Of a stretch of DNA of 61,895 bases, positions 43,037 through 61,895 are shown piece after piece; the first letter of the stretch is position 1; every line of letters begins with the position of its first letter. This stretch comes from an uncultured Bacilli bacterium (GTDB taxonomy: Bacteria > Bacillota_I > Bacilli_A > RF39 > UBA660): contig CANRDN010000012.1 of assembly GCA_947629375.1 (NCBI GenBank), positions 1 to 61,895 on the forward strand, given 5' to 3'. The notes under the pieces were generated by a model. The model was not told where the DNA came from, did no database searches, and saw only the letters and a program-made list of their open reading frames with translations. The position numbers were made by a program, and so were the translations under genes.

Positions 43037-44605
43037 TTAATCTTCAAATAGTTCTTTAGCTTTTTCTTTTAATGATTGTTTGCTAGAAGGTTTTGTTTCA
43101 ATCTCTTCTTGATATTTAAATTTGTCTTTATTATTTTTAAATTCAAGAGTATATTCTTTCCACTCATCTTGTGATAAACATACAATCTTGTTATCTATGC
43201 CAAAAACCTTTTTAAAGATTTTCTCTACTGTAATTATATCAGAATTTAATTGAGTTGCTAACCCCTTCATTTTAGATACGATAATAATATTAGTGTTACT
43301 TGCAGCAACTGGATTTATATCTGAAGACAATAGTCTTGCAATATTTCCGTATTCTTCATCGAAAGCAAGATCTTTTAAATCAGACCACTTTTCTCTTATA
43401 TTTGAGATAATGTTTTTTTGAGGATTGCATAAAGTATTACCTACTCTTATTTCTTTAAATTTTTCATCCACATCTAATGGTTTAACATCATTAGTTTCAA
43501 TCAGTTTTTCTTCAACACGATTATTGTCTTGTTTATCATTATTTTCTACTCGAACATTTGTTGCTGGTTTGTGATTTTCATTATCGTCTTTTGTATCAAG
43601 CAAATAATTTATTAATGTAACTTCAAATACTATTTTTGGATTCTCTGATTTTTCCATTATTGATATCATTTTATCAAGTTCAATTATTAAAGAACAAATA
43701 TCTTTATTATAGTTTTTAGAATCAATCATTTTATTTCTTAAATAATCAACTATATTATTAGCTAATTTAATAAGATCAACACCATCATTATAATAATCAT
43801 TTATTTTAGTAAGAATATCTTCAATATTTTTACTTTCAAATAATGAAGTAAACTCTTCTAATTCCTCGTCAGATATATTTCCAGATATTTCTTTAATTGT
43901 ATTATCAGTTATTGTATCAGATGTATAAGAATTAGCTTTTTCTAATAATCCAATTGCATCTCTTAATCCACCGTTTGAATATTTAGCTATTTCTTTAAGT
44001 CCTGTATCATCTATTTTAATATCTTCCTTTTCAGCAATCTCATTCAATTTATTTTTCATAGATTGTTCATCAATCTTTTTGAATTCCAATGTCTGACATC
44101 TTGAAATAATAGTTAATGGAACTTTATTAAGTTCAGTTGTAGCAAGAATAAATATTGCGTGACTAGGTGGTTCTTCCAAAGTTTTAAGTAAAGCGTTGAA
44201 TGCACCTGTAGAAAGCATATGAACCTCATCTACAATATATACTTTGTATTTAAGAACAGAAGGAACAAAAGATATTTTATTTTTTAATTCTCTTATTTCT
44301 TCAACTCCATTATTAGATGCAGCATCGATTTCAATAATATCAACACAACCATTATCTTTTGTGTTAATACAATTATCGCATTCTTCGCAAGGAATTCCAT
44401 CTTTAGGATTTAAACAGTTAATAGTTCTTGAGAAAATCTTAGCAATTGATGTTTTTCCAGTACCCCTTGGGCCATAAAACAAATATGCGTGTGAAATATG
44501 ATCATTAATAATAGCATTTTTAAGAATTTGCATTGTTACTTTTTGTCCAGCAACTTCGTTAAAATTCTTTGGTCTATATTTTCTATAAAGAGCTTGATAT
44601 TTCAT
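43037..44605 (-). CDS. dnaX: DNA polymerase III subunits gamma/tau
   Basis: DnaX is the ATPase of the clamp loader and its tau form links polymerases to the helicase. Walker A is YGPRGTGKT (45-52), the zinc module uses Cys64, 73, 76 and 79, and VDEVHMLSTGAFNALLKTLEEPP is the Walker B and sensor region. The C-terminus beyond 370 is divergent and charged. GGGGGTG precedes the chosen ATG. The parS/Noc-box block lies directly upstream, and no gene intervenes between the nearest parS and its promoter. Confidence 0.96.
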   Translation of the reverse strand: MKYQALYRKYRPKNFNEVAGQKVTMQILKNAIINDHISHAYLFYGPRGTGKTSIAKIFSRTINCLNPKDGIPCEECDNCINTKDNGCVDIIEIDAASNNGVEEIRELKNKISFVPSVLKYKVYIVDEVHMLSTGAFNALLKTLEEPPSHAIFILATTELNKVPLTIISRCQTLEFKKIDEQSMKNKLNEIAEKEDIKIDDTGLKEIAKYSNGGLRDAIGLLEKANSYTSDTITDNTIKEISGNISDEELEEFTSLFESKNIEDILTKINDYYNDGVDLIKLANNIVDYLRNKMIDSKNYNKDICSLIIELDKMISIMEKSENPKIVFEVTLINYLLDTKDDNENHKPATNVRVENNDKQDNNRVEEKLIETNDVKPLDVDEKFKEIRVGNTLCNPQKNIISNIREKWSDLKDLAFDEEYGNIARLLSSDINPVAASNTNIIIVSKMKGLATQLNSDIITVEKIFKKVFGIDNKIVCLSQDEWKEYTLEFKNNKDKFKYQEEIETKPSSKQSLKEKAKELFED

Positions 44606-44633
44606 AGACACCCCCATAAATATTTGCACTAAT

Positions 44634-44683: not shown

Positions 44684-44699
44684 TGTTTCACGTGAAACA
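44684..44699. other. parS site 1
   Basis: Perfect palindrome TGTTTCACGTGAAACA, within the 20-base palindrome AATGTTTCACGTGAAACATT. It matches the ParB/Spo0J centromere consensus TGTTNCACGTGAAACA. Confidence 0.95.
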
Positions 44700-44729
44700 T
44701 TGATAAAAATCGAAAAAAAAAGTTTGGGA

Positions 44730-44749
44730 AATATTTCCCGGGAAATATT
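44730..44749. other. Noc-box-like palindrome 1 (perfect)
   Basis: The 14-base core ATTTCCCGGGAAAT equals the consensus for the nucleoid-occlusion factor Noc in B. subtilis. Here it is part of a 20-base perfect palindrome. This copy lacks the TTGACA flank. Confidence 0.9.
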
Positions 44750-44771
44750 TTGGCTCAATTTACTATAAAAT

Positions 44772-44787
44772 TATTTCCCGGGAAATA
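44772..44787. other. Noc-box-like palindrome 2 (perfect)
   Basis: TATTTCCCGGGAAATA, a perfect 16-base palindrome followed by ATTTTGACACTGT. Confidence 0.9.
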
Positions 44788-44843
44788 ATTTTGACACTGT
44801 AAAAATTCGTAATTAGCATTTTAAATTCAAAAATCTTGGTAAA

Positions 44844-44859
44844 TATTTCCTGGGAAATA
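44844..44859. other. Noc-box-like palindrome 3 (one mismatch)
   Basis: TATTTCCTGGGAAATA differs from the perfect palindrome by one central base and is followed by ATTTTGACAGTGT. It opens the first copy of the 373-bp duplication. Confidence 0.8.
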
Positions 44860-44909
44860 ATTTTGACAGTGTTCAATTTTTATTCTGATATATATTCAAC
44901 TATATTCAA

Positions 44910-44925
44910 TGTTTCACGTGAAACA
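44910..44925. other. parS site 2
   Basis: Perfect TGTTTCACGTGAAACA in the first copy of the tandem repeat. Confidence 0.95.
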
Positions 44926-45077
44926 TTGATTTAGCAAAAGCTACATCATTAATATAATATATATTTAATTGTTTGTACAAAAAGAGTTATACTAAATTTT
45001 AAAATAAATAAAGCATAAAAATAGTTTAAGTTGTATACAAATTTAATTTTAAAATCAAAACATTAGATTATATCTAA

Positions 45078-45093
45078 TGTTTCACGTGAAACA
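45078..45093. other. parS site 3
   Basis: Perfect TGTTTCACGTGAAACA. It is preceded by a second inverted repeat, CATTAGA-TTATA-TCTAATG, whose right arm runs into the parS. Confidence 0.95.
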
Positions 45094-45216
45094 TTGAATC
45101 ACCAAAATAGTTTATATAGTAAAAAATTAATCTATAGAATAGAAAAAAATAAAATATTATTCATTTGGTTGTTCATATAATCAAAAATTCAATCAAATAT
45201 AAAATAAGGCAAAAAA

Positions 45217-45232
45217 TATTTCCCGGGAAATA
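45217..45232. other. Noc-box-like palindrome 4 (perfect)
   Basis: TATTTCCCGGGAAATA followed by ATTTTGACAGTGT; it opens the second copy of the duplication. Confidence 0.9.
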
Positions 45233-45282
45233 ATTTTGACAGTGTTCAAATTTTATTCTGATATGTATTCAACTATATTCAA

Positions 45283-45298
45283 TGTTTCACGTGAAACA
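45283..45298. other. parS site 4
   Basis: Perfect TGTTTCACGTGAAACA, the duplicate of site 2. Confidence 0.95.
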
Positions 45299-45450
45299 TT
45301 GATTTAGCAAAAGCTACATCATTAATATAATATATATTTAATTGTTTGTACAAAAAGAGTTATACTAAATTTTAAAATAAATAAAGCATAAAAATAGTTT
45401 AAGTTGTATACAAATTTAATTTTAAAATCAAAACATTAGATTATATCTAA

Positions 45451-45466
45451 TGTTTCACGTGAAACA
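45451..45466. other. parS site 5
   Basis: Perfect TGTTTCACGTGAAACA, the duplicate of site 3 and preceded by the same CATTAGA/TCTAATG inverted repeat. Confidence 0.95.
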
Positions 45467-45587
45467 TTGAATCACCAAAATAGTTTATATAGTAAAAAAT
45501 TAATCTATAGAATAGAAAAAAATAAAATATTATTCATTTGGTTGTTCATATAATCAAAAACTAAATCAAATATAAAATAAGGCAAAA

Positions 45588-45603
45588 TATTTCCCAGGAA
45601 ATA
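45588..45603. other. Noc-box-like palindrome 5 (one mismatch)
   Basis: TATTTCCCAGGAAATA, followed by ATTTTGACACTGT. The mismatch is again at the centre. Confidence 0.8.
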
Positions 45604-45640
45604 ATTTTGACACTGTATAAATTTTAAATTAAAAAAATAA

Positions 45641-45656
45641 TGTTTCACGTGAAACA
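45641..45656. other. parS site 6
   Basis: Perfect TGTTTCACGTGAAACA between the repeats and tadA. Nothing else is seen in the rest of this gene-free stretch apart from AT-rich sequence. Confidence 0.95.
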
Positions 45657-45713
45657 TTACATAACTTGTTAAATTATTTTAGATGACTTAATTTGATTAT
45701 TGATTTTTAATAA

Positions 45714-46157
45714 TTAATCTTCCAATGTTTCACGTGAAACATTACCTGTTCTTATTTCTTTAAATTTTTCTTTTATAAGATCTTCACATTTTTTAATAAT
45801 CTCTGTTGATTTAATCTGGTTAAGATTTATATTATCTAATGAATTTTTATCATTATCTGCTCCATAAATTACTTTAATTACTTTAGCTTCGTTTATTACT
45901 TGTTGACACATTTTGCAAGGTTTTAAAGTCGTGTATAAAGTTGCATCTACTAATCTCCAATTGTCCAAGGCTTTATTTGCTTTTTCAATTGCAATAATCT
46001 CAGCGTGTTTTGTAACAATGTTCGAACTATCTCTCAAGTTGTAACCCCTTGCTACTATTTCATTATTTACAACAACTACTGCACCAATAGGTATTTCATT
46101 TTTTTTATATGCTTTTAATGCTTCTTTATAAGCTTCCATCATAAAATATTCATCCAT
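45714..46157 (-). CDS. tadA: tRNA-specific adenosine deaminase
   Basis: TadA converts adenosine 34 to inosine in tRNA-Arg(ACG). The zinc site is H-A-E at 51-53 with the catalytic Glu53, plus Cys81 and Cys84 in LKPCKMCQ. The family segment NEIPIGAVVVVNNEIVARGYNLRD is present. The C-terminal residues GNVSRETLED are encoded partly by a perfect parS site, so the tail sequence is set by the centromere. The gene follows the SRP RNA, as tadA-scr-dnaX does in B. subtilis. GTGGTGAT precedes the chosen ATG. Confidence 0.95.
   Translation of the reverse strand: MDEYFMMEAYKEALKAYKKNEIPIGAVVVVNNEIVARGYNLRDSSNIVTKHAEIIAIEKANKALDNWRLVDATLYTTLKPCKMCQQVINEAKVIKVIYGADNDKNSLDNINLNQIKSTEIIKKCEDLIKEKFKEIRTGNVSRETLED
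45726..45741. other. parS site 7, inside the tadA coding region
   Basis: Perfect TGTTTCACGTGAAACA that also encodes part of the tadA C-terminus (N-V-S-R-E-T). Confidence 0.95.
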
Positions 46158-46176
46158 AACAATCACCACAAATAAA

Positions 46177-46258
46177 AATGATGCACATAAGTACTAAAAT
46201 AAAGCATTAAGGCTGCTACATTCCTGTCCTGACCTGTTTCTGCCGTACTTATTGCATC
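46177..46258 (-). ncRNA. ffs: Signal recognition particle RNA, short 4.5S type
   Basis: On the - strand the conserved apical domain reads ACAGGTCAGGACAGGAA followed by TGTAGCAGCC. The ends pair: ATGCA-ATAAGTAC with GTACTTAT-G-TGCAT, giving a hairpin of about 80 nt without an Alu domain. T-rich sequence follows directly, so the terminal stem may act as terminator. The short form differs from the long 6S-like scRNA of B. subtilis. It sits between gyrA and tadA and has its own promoter. Confidence 0.93.
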
Positions 46259-46265
46259 GATTTGT

Positions 46266-46303: not shown

Positions 46304-46334
46304 ATAAAAAGAAAAAGAGGAATTATATTTCCTC
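46304..46334 (-). terminator. Terminator after gyrA
   Basis: On the - strand GAGGAA-ATATAA-TTCCTC followed by TTTTTCTTTTT. The stem overlaps the gyrA stop codon. Confidence 0.85.
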
Positions 46335-48971
46335 TTCACTTTGTTCTTCAGTACTATCAACTTCGTATATATTATCTAGATCATTATTTTGTCGATCTTC
46401 TGTTTGAGTTTCAGCAACTGGTTCATTACTTACTTGATTATCCGAATTTTCTTCTTCCTCAACTTTTTCAATTATAGCTGTTGTAGATACTTTTTGTTCA
46501 TCTTTCAAATTAATAAGTCTTACACCTTGAGTATTTCTACTTAATGTTGATATTTGAGATATTTCCATTCTAATAGTCATACCACTATCTGTAATAATTA
46601 TTAAATCTTCATCTTCATAAACAGTTCTTAATGATACTAACTTACCATTCTTTTCTGTTACATTTAATGTCTTAACACCTTTACTACCTCTATGAGTTAA
46701 TCTATATTCCTCAATTGGTGTTTTCTTACCATAACCTTTTTCAGTAACAATTAATACTTCTGCATTTGGTTCAACAACTTCTGCACCAACTACTACTTCA
46801 TCGTCATTTAGTTCGATTCCTTTAACACCAGAACTTCCTCTACCCATTACACGAACTTCTGTTTCATTAAATCTTACCAACTTACCATTACTTGCACCAA
46901 TTATTACTTCTTTAGTACCATCAGTCTTTCTTACGGCAATTAATTCATCGCCTTCTTTAAGAACTATTGCTTTCTTACCGTTCGAACGAATGTTTTCAAA
47001 TTCTTCTCTTCTAGTTCTTTTTATTAAACCTTGTTTAGTAACAAATGTTAACATTGTTTGATCACTATCGTCGCTTACAGTTACAACAGATGTTATTTTT
47101 TCGTCTTTTTCAAGTGGTAATAAATTAATTATTGGTAATCCTTTAGACTGTCTTGAGAATTCAGGTACTTCGTAACCTTTCATCCTATAAACTTTTCCAA
47201 GATTACTAAACATTAATAGATAATCGTGAGTCTTCATAGATAACAACTTTTCAGGGAAATCTTCCTCATTTGTTGTCATTCCCTTAATTCCTACACCACC
47301 ACGATGTTGTGTTTTAAATGTATCGTTTGGAACTCTCTTAATATAACCTTTATTTGTTAAAGCAATTAAGATGTTTTCAACAGGTATTAATGATTCATCT
47401 TCAATATAATCTACAGCTGACATATCGATTGTTGTTCTTCTATCATCACTATATTTATCTTTAATTTCAAGCATTTCTTTCTTAATAATACCTAACACCT
47501 TTTGTTCTGATGCCAAAATTGACTTTAATTCTTCTATTTCTATTAATAAGGCATTTAATTCTGCATCTATCTTGTCTCTTTCTAGTCCAGTTAATCTTCT
47601 TAATCTTAGCTCTAAGATATTATCTGTTTGAATCTCAGTTAAACCGAATCTTTCCATCAATTGTTCTTTAGCTTCAACATCTGTTTCAGCATTTCTAATA
47701 ATTTTAACAACTTCATCGATGTTATCAAGAGCAATCTTATAACCTTCTAGGATATGTACTCTCTTTTCATCTCTAGCAAGATCAAATTTAGTTCTTCTAA
47801 TAATAACTTCTTTTTGGAAATCGATATATTTAGAAATTATTGATTTTAGACTTAATGTTTTTGGAGTTAAACCATCTAAAACCAGTAGAATAATACCGTA
47901 TGTAACTTGGAAATTAGTATGTTTATACAAATTATTTAGTACTACCTGTGGATTTGCGTCTCTTTTTAGAGTAATTGTAATCTTTACTCCATCTTTTAAA
48001 TCTGTATGATAATCTGCTATTCCATCGATTGTCTTATTGTGAACAAGTTCTGCTACTTTATTTTTAAGTTCCATAGTATTAACACCATAAGGAACTTCAG
48101 TTATTACGATAGTACTATGTGTACCGTGATCTTCAATTAAAGCCTTACTTCTTATAGTAATAGTACCTCTTCCTGTATCGTACGCTTGTTTGATACCAGA
48201 ATTACCTAAAATAATACCACCTGTTGGGAAATCTGGTCCTTTTATATATTGCATTAATCCAAGAGTATCAATTTCAGGATTATCGATATAAGCAACACAA
48301 CCATCTATTACTTCACCTAAATTGTGAGGTGGAATATTAGTAGCCATACCAACAGCAATTCCCATAGCACCATTTACAAGAACATTTGGAAATCTACCTG
48401 GTAAAACTCTTGGTTCTTTTCTTGTTACATCGAAGTTGTCGTCCATATCGACTGTATCTTTTCCAATATCTCTTAGTAATTCAAGAGATATCTTGGAAAG
48501 ACGCGACTCAGTATAACGCATAGCTGCGGCACCGTCACCCTCGATGTTACCAAAGTTTCCGTGACCATCGATTAACATATATCTTTGGTTAAAATCTTGT
48601 GCCATTCTAACCATTGCTTCATAGATTGAAGAATCTCCGTGTGGGTGGTAATTACCCATAACTTCTCCGACTGTTTTAGCACTCTTTCTATGTGGTTTAT
48701 CTGGTGTGTAACCTGATTCATACATTGACCATAAAATACGTCTGTGAACTGGCTTTAATCCATCTCTTAGGTCAGGTAATGCACGAGAAGCAATTACACT
48801 CATAGAATACTCTAAGAAAGATGTTTTTACTTCATCTACTATATTATTTTCTGATAAACTATCTCTTTCGTGAAAGTGTCCATCAAAATTTGAGTCGTTA
48901 AGTTCAACTCTTTCTAGAGATTCATCGAATTCTTCATTAAGTTCTTCATTATTTTTATTTTCGTCGTCCAT
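46323..48971 (-). CDS. gyrA: DNA gyrase subunit A
   Basis: GyrA cuts and rejoins DNA during negative supercoiling. The catalytic Tyr153 lies in [11 protein letters not shown]. The quinolone region reads [19 protein letters not shown] with Ser114 and Glu118 (E. coli positions 83 and 87), the susceptible-type residues. Six C-terminal beta-pinwheel blades follow, with a GyrA-box-like [12 protein letters not shown] ([14 protein letters not shown]). Residues 1-45 form an acidic, low-complexity N-terminal extension longer than usual, and the tail is acidic as well. gyrB lies 12 bases upstream. Confidence 0.97.
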
Positions 48972-59213: not shown

Positions 59214-61070
59214 ATGTATGATGTTATAGTTATTGGTGGTGGTCACGCTGGATGTGAAGCATCCCTTGCAGCAGCGCGTCTTGGTAAAAAGACCTTACTT
59301 GTAACTGGTAAAATAAAAAATATTGCCGATATGCCTTGTAACCCTTCAATTGGGGGACCTGCTAAAGGAATAATTGTAAGAGAAATAGATGCTCTTGGTG
59401 GTGAAATGGCCAAAAATATCGATAAAAGTTTCTTACAAATGAAAATGCTTAATACTAAAAAAGGTCCTGCAGTAAGAGCACTTCGTGCCCAAGCCGATAA
59501 AGTTACTTATCAAAAAGAAATGCAAAATACGATATTAAATCAAGAAAACCTTGAAGTACTTGAAACAATGGCAGAAGACTTAATTGTCGAAGACAAAAAA
59601 TTCAAGGGTATAGTGACGAAAGATGGTAAAGAAATTTATGGTAAAGCTGTAATCATAACGACAGGAACTTACTTAAAAGGTATGATTCTATATGGTGACA
59701 CAAAATTTTCTAGTGGACCACATAGCGAAGAGCCATCCCTTCATCTTAGTGATGCCTTAAAGCGTATTGGATTCAATATAAAAAGACTTAAAACAGGAAC
59801 GCCTCCTAGAATAAAAAAGAGTAGTATTGATTACTCAAAAGCTGTAATTCAACCAGGAGATGATGAATTATATAACTTTTCTTTTGCTAATACTCCTAAT
59901 TATAAAGCAGAAGACCAAATTCCGTGTTATTTAATTTATACGACTCCAAAAACGCATCAAATAATAAAAGATAACCTTACTAAATCAAGTATGTATGGTG
60001 GTTATGTCGAAGGAGTAGGGCCAAGATATTGTCCATCAATCGAAGATAAAATAGTTAAATTTGCCGATAAAGAAAGACATCAAATTTTTCTAGAACCAGA
60101 AAGCATCTATTATGATGATATCTATATTCAAGGTTTTTCCACATCGATGCCTCACGATATTCAAGAGCAAATGGTTCATAGTCTTCCAGGGCTTGAAAAT
60201 GCTGAAATAGTAAAATATGCTTATGCTATCGAGTATGATGCAATTGATTCTTTGCAACTTAAAGCAAGTCTTGAAAGTAAAATCGTAGAAAACCTTTATA
60301 CGGCAGGTCAAATCAATGGAACTAGTGGCTACGAGGAAGCAGCAGGACAAGGACTAATCGCAGGAATTAACGCAGCAAGAAAAATAGATGGAAAAGAACC
60401 TTTAATCTTAAAAAGAAATGAAGCATATATAGGAGTACTAATTGATGACTTAGTAACTAAAGGAGTAATTGATCCTTATAGACTTTTAACATCAAGAGCA
60501 GAGTATCGTCTTTTACTTCGTCACGACAATGCCGATATAAGACTTATGGAATATGGTAATGAAATTGGTCTATTACAAGAAGAAACTTATAAAAAATTTA
60601 AAGAAAAAGAAAAGAAAATAGAAGAATTAAAGAAATTGCTTAAAGAAAAGAAAATAACGCCAAAAGAAGAAACAAATAAATATCTAGAAAGTCTTGGAAG
60701 CGCTAAGTTATTTGATTCAATTACTTTGTATGACTTATTAAAAAGACCAGAGATAGAGTACGAGCACATCGAAAAATATGTAGGCGAAACTTTTGACAAA
60801 GAAGTAATAGAGCAGGTAGTTATAAATATTAAATATGAAGGTTACATTGCTAAAGCAAATAAAGAAGCTGAAAAGATGCTCGAGTATGAAAATATCAAAT
60901 TAAGTGAAGATTTTGATTATTCTAAAGTACCAAATCTTGCTAAAGAAGCAATTCAAAAACTAAATGAAATAAAGCCAGGTAGTTTAGGTCAAGCGATAAG
61001 AATTAGTGGTGTAAATCCAGCAGATATCTCAATGATACTTTTATATTTAAAGAGGAACAAAAATGAATAA
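59214..61070 (+). CDS. mnmG: tRNA uridine-5-carboxymethylaminomethyl synthase MnmG (GidA)
   Basis: MnmG is the FAD-dependent partner of MnmE. The N-terminal FAD site is VIVIGGGHAGCEAALAAARLG-like (GGGHAGCEASLAAARLG), and the family motif MPCNPSIGGPAKG with the catalytic Cys follows. The tRNA-binding C-terminal segment has TSRAEYRLLLRHDNADIRL. The product is 618 aa. GGAAGTGAT precedes the chosen ATG. The 3' end overlaps rsmG by eight bases. Confidence 0.97.
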   Translation: MYDVIVIGGGHAGCEASLAAARLGKKTLLVTGKIKNIADMPCNPSIGGPAKGIIVREIDALGGEMAKNIDKSFLQMKMLNTKKGPAVRALRAQADKVTYQKEMQNTILNQENLEVLETMAEDLIVEDKKFKGIVTKDGKEIYGKAVIITTGTYLKGMILYGDTKFSSGPHSEEPSLHLSDALKRIGFNIKRLKTGTPPRIKKSSIDYSKAVIQPGDDELYNFSFANTPNYKAEDQIPCYLIYTTPKTHQIIKDNLTKSSMYGGYVEGVGPRYCPSIEDKIVKFADKERHQIFLEPESIYYDDIYIQGFSTSMPHDIQEQMVHSLPGLENAEIVKYAYAIEYDAIDSLQLKASLESKIVENLYTAGQINGTSGYEEAAGQGLIAGINAARKIDGKEPLILKRNEAYIGVLIDDLVTKGVIDPYRLLTSRAEYRLLLRHDNADIRLMEYGNEIGLLQEETYKKFKEKEKKIEELKKLLKEKKITPKEETNKYLESLGSAKLFDSITLYDLLKRPEIEYEHIEKYVGETFDKEVIEQVVINIKYEGYIAKANKEAEKMLEYENIKLSEDFDYSKVPNLAKEAIQKLNEIKPGSLGQAIRISGVNPADISMILLYLKRNKNE

Positions 61071-61767
61071 AGAAGAATTTATTGAAGAAGTTAAAAAATT
61101 AGGTATAGATGTTACAGAAGAAAAGTTAGCATTACTAGATAGATTCTATCACTTGCTTATCGAGTGGAACGAAAAGATTAATCTAACAGCAATAACAGAG
61201 GAAAAAGATGTATATTTAAAGCATTTCTATGACAGCCTAACACTTTATAAATGTATCGATTTAACTAAAGATATCTCTTTGTGCGATGTGGGTAGTGGAG
61301 CAGGTTTTCCTGGAATCGTACTAAAAATCTTCTTTCCAAACTTAAAGATAAAGTTAATTGATTCTCTAGAAAAAAGAATAAAGTACCTAAACGAAGTAAT
61401 AAAAGAACTTAATCTTACTAATATTTCAGCAGAACATTATCGTATGGAAGACTACTCAAAATTACACGAAGAAGAGTATGACTTTATAACAGCAAGAGCA
61501 GTAGCAAACCTAGGTGTTATATCCGAAATATCAGTAAAAGCCTTAAAAACAGGAGGACATTTAGTCTTTATGAAAGGTAAGTGTGACGAAGAACTAAATA
61601 AATTTTCTTCTAAATCTTCTAATCTTGGGTTAGTTCTAGTAAACAAAGAAGAATTCTTATTACCATTTGAAGAAAGTTCTAGAACTTTGTTAGATTATCA
61701 AAAATTATCAAAAACAAAGGAAAAGTATCCAAGAAGAATAGAAATCATTAGAAAAGACTATTCATAA
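61063..61767 (+). CDS. rsmG: 16S rRNA guanine-527 N7-methyltransferase RsmG (GidB)
   Basis: RsmG methylates G527 of 16S rRNA. The N-terminal LLIEWNEKINLTAITE and SAM motif LCDVGSGAGFPGIVLKI are typical, with ITARAVANLGVISEISVKAL later. Length of 234 aa is normal. It is the last gene in the window. In B. subtilis the next genes are noc, soj (parA) and spo0J (parB), which fits the parS and Noc-box block found at 44.7-45.7 kb. Confidence 0.96.
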   Translation: MNKEEFIEEVKKLGIDVTEEKLALLDRFYHLLIEWNEKINLTAITEEKDVYLKHFYDSLTLYKCIDLTKDISLCDVGSGAGFPGIVLKIFFPNLKIKLIDSLEKRIKYLNEVIKELNLTNISAEHYRMEDYSKLHEEEYDFITARAVANLGVISEISVKALKTGGHLVFMKGKCDEELNKFSSKSSNLGLVLVNKEEFLLPFEESSRTLLDYQKLSKTKEKYPRRIEIIRKDYS

Positions 61768-61799: not shown

Positions 61800-61835
61800 A
61801 CAAATTTATCTTATAATTATCTTGAGTTTTGCAGT

Positions 61836-61878
61836 AAAAATGAGCAAACCTAACAATTACAAGGATTTGCTCATTTTT
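61836..61878. terminator. Strong hairpin near the right edge, probably a bidirectional terminator
   Basis: AAAAATGAGCAAA and TTTGCTCATTTTT form a perfect 13-bp stem, with CC/GG extending it around a bulged A. T runs lie on both strands. Confidence 0.7.
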
Positions 61879-61895
61879 TACATCTTGTGTAATAT

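Follow-up and report, generated by a model that had tools for sequence, protein, structure and literature searches.

A block close to the replication origin of an uncultured Bacilli bacterium (positions 44,684–45,741) contains seven perfect parS sites together with five Noc boxes (NBS), as seen by scanning the window, by which we mean the whole stretch of 61,895 nucleotides that was analysed. We propose that this block is probably a composite origin-proximal element, with parS sites serving to load ParB and the NBS between them serving to load Noc, and that Noc is here mainly an origin protein. The sites, their location and restriction to the origin, the genes for both proteins, the specificity residues of these proteins and the conservation of the arrangement in the family are directly observed. 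The coordinates of the features are collected in Table 1.

Table 1. Sites of the composite block, neighbouring genes and the genes of the candidate readers. Positions are those of the window, except those with the prefix L018, which belong to contig C4.
Feature	Position	Strand	Remarks
dnaX, left neighbour	43037..44629	-	NF004046, 475 bits
parS 1	44684..44699		perfect
NBS 1	44732..44747		perfect
NBS 2	44772..44787		perfect
373-bp unit x2, tandem, carrying NBS-parS-parS	44841..45586		spacing 373 (copies begin at 44841 and 45214); 99% identical over 300 nt compared
NBS 3	44844..44859		TATTTCCTGGGAAATA, one central mismatch
parS 2	44910..44925		perfect
parS 3	45078..45093		perfect
NBS 4	45217..45232		perfect
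parS 4	45283..45298		perfect; duplicate of parS 2
parS 5	45451..45466		perfect; duplicate of parS 3
NBS 5	45588..45603		TATTTCCCAGGAAATA, one central mismatch
parS 6	45641..45656		perfect
tadA-like deaminase, right neighbour	45714..46157	-	NF008113, 103 bits (below cut-off of 150); tadA at the same place in relatives
parS 7	45726..45741		perfect; within 3' end of tadA reading frame
small SRP RNA	46174..46261	-	RF00169
gyrA	46323..48971	-	right-hand border of the interval, conserved among relatives
dnaA	53935..55338	-	origin region
rsmG	61063..61767	+	noc-soj-parB next, on overlapping contig C4
noc	L018:374-1930		contig C4, directly right of rsmG
soj (ParA)	L018:2028-2816		contig C4
parB	L018:2803-3684		contig C4

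The NBS sequence TATTTCCCGGGAAATA occurs in three perfect copies and two with a central mismatch among copies of the parS sequence TGTTTCACGTGAAACA, just as the initial annotation had described, and its observation that positions 2, 7, 10 and 15 are the only ones at which the two 16-mers differ also holds. The order of sites along the block is P N N N P P N P P N P P (P, parS; N, NBS), and all five NBS are confined to 0.9 kb near the origin, the window containing no further NBS at up to 3 mismatches. Shuffled windows contain on average 0.23 NBS and 0.43 parS, and the observed totals of five and seven were never reached. The block is flanked by dnaX on one side and tadA on the other, with dnaA nearby; beyond the block and tadA follow the SRP RNA, gyrA, gyrB, recF, dnaN and dnaA, and the distances to dnaA are approximately 8–11 kb for parS and 8–10 kb for NBS. 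When both sites were mapped across the assembly (1.87 Mb in 72 contigs, 95.6% complete), no other NBS or parS was found anywhere at up to 1 mismatch, and at 2 mismatches there was one stray NBS and one stray parS in the whole assembly, not above the reversed-pattern control. The shuffles and the genome-wide search together rule out a chance occurrence of the sites.

Genes for both candidate readers lie to the right of rsmG, where the initial annotation had advised looking for noc and parB. The right end of the window and the start of contig C4 overlap by 269 identical bases, in rsmG and just past it, and C4 carries noc, soj and parB. Inverted matching ends, GAGTTTTGCAGT and ACTGCAAAACTC, flank this shared stretch (window 61820–61895; L018:1–72), a pattern suggestive of an assembly break between rsmG and noc caused by strain variation or by a mobile element. 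ParA and ParB are encoded together, and canonical parS sites, seven of them perfect, lie near the origin, as in a ParABS system. FtsZ is present; a search for MinC_C, made in one genome, gave no match.

The Noc protein is 518 aa long and best matches the solved CTP- and DNA-binding domains of Noc (E ~1e-61), Spo0J being a weaker match; it contains ParB_N (PF02195, 120 bits) and HTH_ParB (PF17762, 111 bits) domains, and the CTP motifs GERR and ENLQR are retained in the alignment to solved Noc. Against the NCBIfam model TIGR04285 it scores 288.9 bits over residues 6–208 only, which is below the cut-off of 315, and the ParB of the same genome scores 252.7 bits. Mutagenesis and crystal structures established that positions 173, 179, 184 and 201 separate NBS from parS binding, a single K at 179 or 184 being sufficient for NBS specificity (PMC7383237). 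At these positions Noc has Q-K-A-R, which is the NBS type, and ParB has R-M-N-S, in which R173 is of the parS type and S201, in place of G201, is unusual; S201 has been found in parS-specific as well as in dual-specificity variants (PMC7383237). Both cognate readers are thus present, and we infer that Noc and ParB bind to the block and load on it as clamps. A third protein with a ParB_N domain and a far weaker match (L019, G000:C8:4761–5015, in a 351-aa frame) comes perhaps from a plasmid-like or integrated element.

Comparison of the block in relatives, in a sample of the family comprising 145 genomes from 144 genera, shows that the composite is conserved. Of the 145 genomes, 126 have NBS, 115 have parS, 135 have Noc and 144 have ParB, with reversed-pattern controls almost nil, and most members have 1–8 NBS per genome. 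The presence of NBS goes with the presence of Noc (Fisher p 0.004), the mismatches being 14 genomes with Noc and no NBS and 5 with NBS and no detected Noc, and some of these genomes are incomplete. Nearly all of the approximately 60 Noc proteins read preserve Q173-K179-R201; the Noc proteins of G034 and G134 have V and E respectively in place of Q173, and both genomes are without NBS.

These data bear on the possibility that in this genus one ParB of relaxed specificity (R173, M179, N184, S201) reads both parS and NBS, the block then being simply a larger centromere. Dual-specificity variants mostly have S or T at position 201 (PMC7383237), and the ParB of the window genome has S201 where extant ParB is reported as G201. 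However, parS-specific variants in the same scan may carry S201 too, and most ParB proteins of the family keep G201, yet distinct NBS persist in those genomes. Moreover, parS and NBS stay perfect and distinct, with no merging into hybrids, and a separate Noc with NBS-type residues is widespread, its presence tracked by that of NBS, all of which makes reading of both sites by a single ParB quite improbable.

The confinement of NBS seen in the window is also seen in relatives. In the 11 less fragmented genomes all NBS are on one contig and within 23 kb, and one of these genomes has four NBS in a 20-kb stretch on a 1.04-Mb contig. In 21 genomes with both site types, unselected for close pairs, a parS lies no more than 20 kb away for 63 of the 70 NBS; the two site types are strictly interleaved in 8 of the 21 and form adjacent yet separate NBS and parS groups in the rest. 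Outside the family, within the same class, NBS groups are found in only a few genomes, of which G169, from another family, has five NBS in 39 kb (G169:C1:111463–150331) and could represent another lineage in which Noc boxes cluster at the origin.

Some individual loci depart from the common arrangement. At 5 of 50 loci (L198, L204, L210, L211 and L212) NBS lie 100–800 bp upstream of noc and are possibly autoregulatory; a general autoregulatory site at this position was rejected, so few loci having an NBS there and the window genome none. A run of ten copies of the parS variant TGTTTCACGTGGAACA, approximately 37 bp apart, is found in G030 (G030:C6:51529–51880); the variant is frequent among members of the family, and a version with two changes, TGTTCCACGTGGAACA, also occurs.

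A scan in which each species was represented by a single genome yielded at least 114 stretches with parS no more than about 60 bp from an NBS. Almost all of those listed bear the label uncultured Bacilli, Tenericutes, Mollicutes, Bacillales or Erysipelotrichaceae, with Candidatus Onthousia and Scybalousia among the carriers. The recR-dnaX-tadA-gyrA interval holds mixed clusters in more than 110 relatives and in all 121 loci mapped, these loci having been preselected for close parS-NBS pairs; the cluster is mostly in the tadA-gyrA gap and sometimes, like that in the window, in the dnaX-tadA gap. Five loci (L074, L112, L123, L155 and L160) have strictly alternating N-P arrays with a period of approximately 127 bp, and in L074 the strict alternation involves up to 21 sites. 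In the mapped clusters that are not periodic there are 250 switches between site types against 186 expected from label shuffles (z 7.6), and the order in the window, with 6 switches against 5.8 expected from label shuffles, is not above chance in alternation.

Neighbouring NBS and parS have start-to-start distances that peak near 25, 36, 47, 57 and 68 bp. The best period among those scanned (6–18 bp) is 10.9–11.0 bp, split halves agree, and a jitter null gives p ≤0.0005, a value obtained after grouping related species at 70–85% identity and to be read as exploratory, kinship being only partly removed. Distances between parS and parS, used as a control, have no helical phasing, and NBS-NBS pairs were too few for this analysis.

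It could be argued that the cluster is a by-product of tandem duplication and has no joint function. The 373-bp duplication in the window is recent and is the source of one of its NBS and two of its parS; clean tandem arrays are also seen in several relatives. However, alternation above shuffles is seen in the non-periodic clusters too, the clusters sit in one and the same interval in species that differ in all their spacings, and sites remain perfect while the spacers diverge; we therefore think that duplication without joint function is a decidedly improbable explanation.

Among the ParB proteins read, only that of one relative, G092, has a Noc-like Q173, its residues being Q-T-R-T. Under the published rule, a Q at 173 recognises A at position 1 (PMC7383237), so the expected site of this ParB was the hybrid TATTTCACGTGAAATA, a prediction that preceded the search. 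Among the 145 genomes a perfect TATTTCACGTGAAATA is present in G092 only, at L246:9970 (G092:C96:11969), between tadA and gyrA and next to an NBS, and G092 has no parS at up to 1 mismatch; single-base variants of the hybrid occur in other genomes. The site is possibly a terminator, because it is inside a longer palindrome just past gyrA. Judged from sequence, the G092 ParB and its hybrid site appear to be a natural intermediate of the specificity switch, in a single genome. The four residues and two base positions of the ParB/Noc switch described previously (PMC7383237) are the same as those that separate the sites in these wild genomes, although the intermediates there were engineered whereas the candidate here is natural, and would provide a wild example for the engineered path from ParB to Noc specificity.

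The location of the G092 hybrid site is one of two observations consistent with the palindromes being terminators or operators of dnaX and tadA that merely resemble NBS, the other being a terminator-like hairpin scored at one NBS region of the window (44723–44742), which is a weak match. As this was the only such match, pure terminators were rejected as candidates. A wider role as terminators or operators is extremely improbable, as the sites are exact 16-bp matches to a known site, are spread through the family and tied there to their cognate reader, and form arrays in which the site types alternate, as many as 21 sites lying within a single intergenic gap; they are also helically phased with parS, and a terminator needs no such features.

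In B. subtilis an N-terminal amphipathic helix of Noc is required for membrane binding and function (PMC4331003, PMC8429893). The N-terminal helix is absent from the Noc of the window genome, because its alignment to solved and B. subtilis Noc begins only at about residue 25–26, and N-termini are likewise short in nearly all of the relatives' Noc read, a few of which have uncertain start codons. The initial annotation had proposed that the block places ParB partition complexes and membrane-recruiting Noc complexes side by side at the origin. The presence of the site readers and the conservation of the block agree with this, but membrane recruitment is not supported, the helix being absent here and in nearly all relatives read. 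In place of the helix there is a variable linker, and Noc open frames range from 335 to 728 aa across the family. Three short linker motifs recur among 48 Noc proteins, namely A.DI in 24 (1.9 expected from shuffles), [RK]FF in 16 (0.8 expected) and the core D[LI][DE][DSN]LL in 13 (0.0 expected), these counts being partly due to shared descent. The Noc of G030 (L210) has a linker of repeated units like QPEPFNPFSAPVQNEMPQMDQ, an extreme linker expansion.

The likeness to B. subtilis Noc includes an identical 16-bp box, noc adjoining rsmG and soj-parB, ParB_N and HTH domains with the Q/K/R specificity residues, and the retained CTP-binding motifs. However, B. subtilis has approximately 70 NBS around most of its chromosome (PMC4331003, PMC8429893), whereas the window genome has five, all among parS beside the origin, and its Noc, besides being without the amphipathic helix, has a linker and C-terminal region of approximately 310 residues. 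In S. aureus, with which the core box and a link between Noc and the origin region are shared, there are 41 Noc sites over about 1.4 Mb and Noc controls replication initiation (PMC5540599); here there is a single cluster of boxes, and replication control, demonstrated in S. aureus, is putative. The canonical parS 16-mer, ParA and ParB, and the location by gyrA and dnaA are those of a ParABS centromere, from which the locus differs in having Noc boxes woven in and, family-wide, helically phased relative to parS. The open-access papers searched yielded no description of a composite locus of this kind.

ParB and Noc both belong to the family of CTP-dependent DNA clamps, and the two would therefore be expected to build up on one stretch of a few kb beside dnaA. 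In the model that we propose, parS sites would load ParB and NBS would load Noc on shared DNA, and Noc would be mainly an origin protein, its boxes in these bacteria being origin-proximal, for the most part within or close to the parS cluster, instead of chromosome-wide. As the family's boxes are found only near the origin, an occlusion map that spans the chromosome, as in B. subtilis, cannot hold for these bacteria. Each newly replicated origin would probably bear both a Noc complex and a ParB-ParA complex for segregation, and the action of Noc, either in keeping FtsZ off an unsegregated origin or in restraining re-initiation as in S. aureus, would be tied to the position of the origin. Noc without the N-terminal helix may act through the conserved short linker motifs, although any account of its action without this helix, and of the biological output of the block, is speculative.

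We rank an origin-tied action of Noc as the likeliest, with replication control as the main alternative, in which the origin NBS mainly restrain initiation and have little role in division. That all boxes are within some 10 kb of dnaA and none elsewhere, that Noc controls initiation in S. aureus (PMC5540599), and that the membrane helix is absent would all be consistent with such a role; but no site lies within or adjoining dnaA in the window, and we regard a role mainly in initiation as rather unlikely. Origin-tied action can be extended, tentatively and as a reading that could well be correct, to a two-clamp centromere, in which Noc would have turned from an inhibitor of division across the chromosome into the family's second origin-region protein, its boxes helically phased among parS and motifs in its long flexible linker replacing the membrane helix. 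A single composite element would then be the starting point both of segregation and of the control of division or replication.

Because the mixed block recurs across a large related family, the segregation and division-control systems appear to have been joined at the origin. Noc is known as a division inhibitor with sites spread over the chromosome; in more than 100 genera, mostly of gut bacteria, it is linked to the origin region and to the centromere. The locus makes it possible to test what role Noc has when its sites mark the origin only, and how CTP clamps of two related kinds behave on DNA that carries both.
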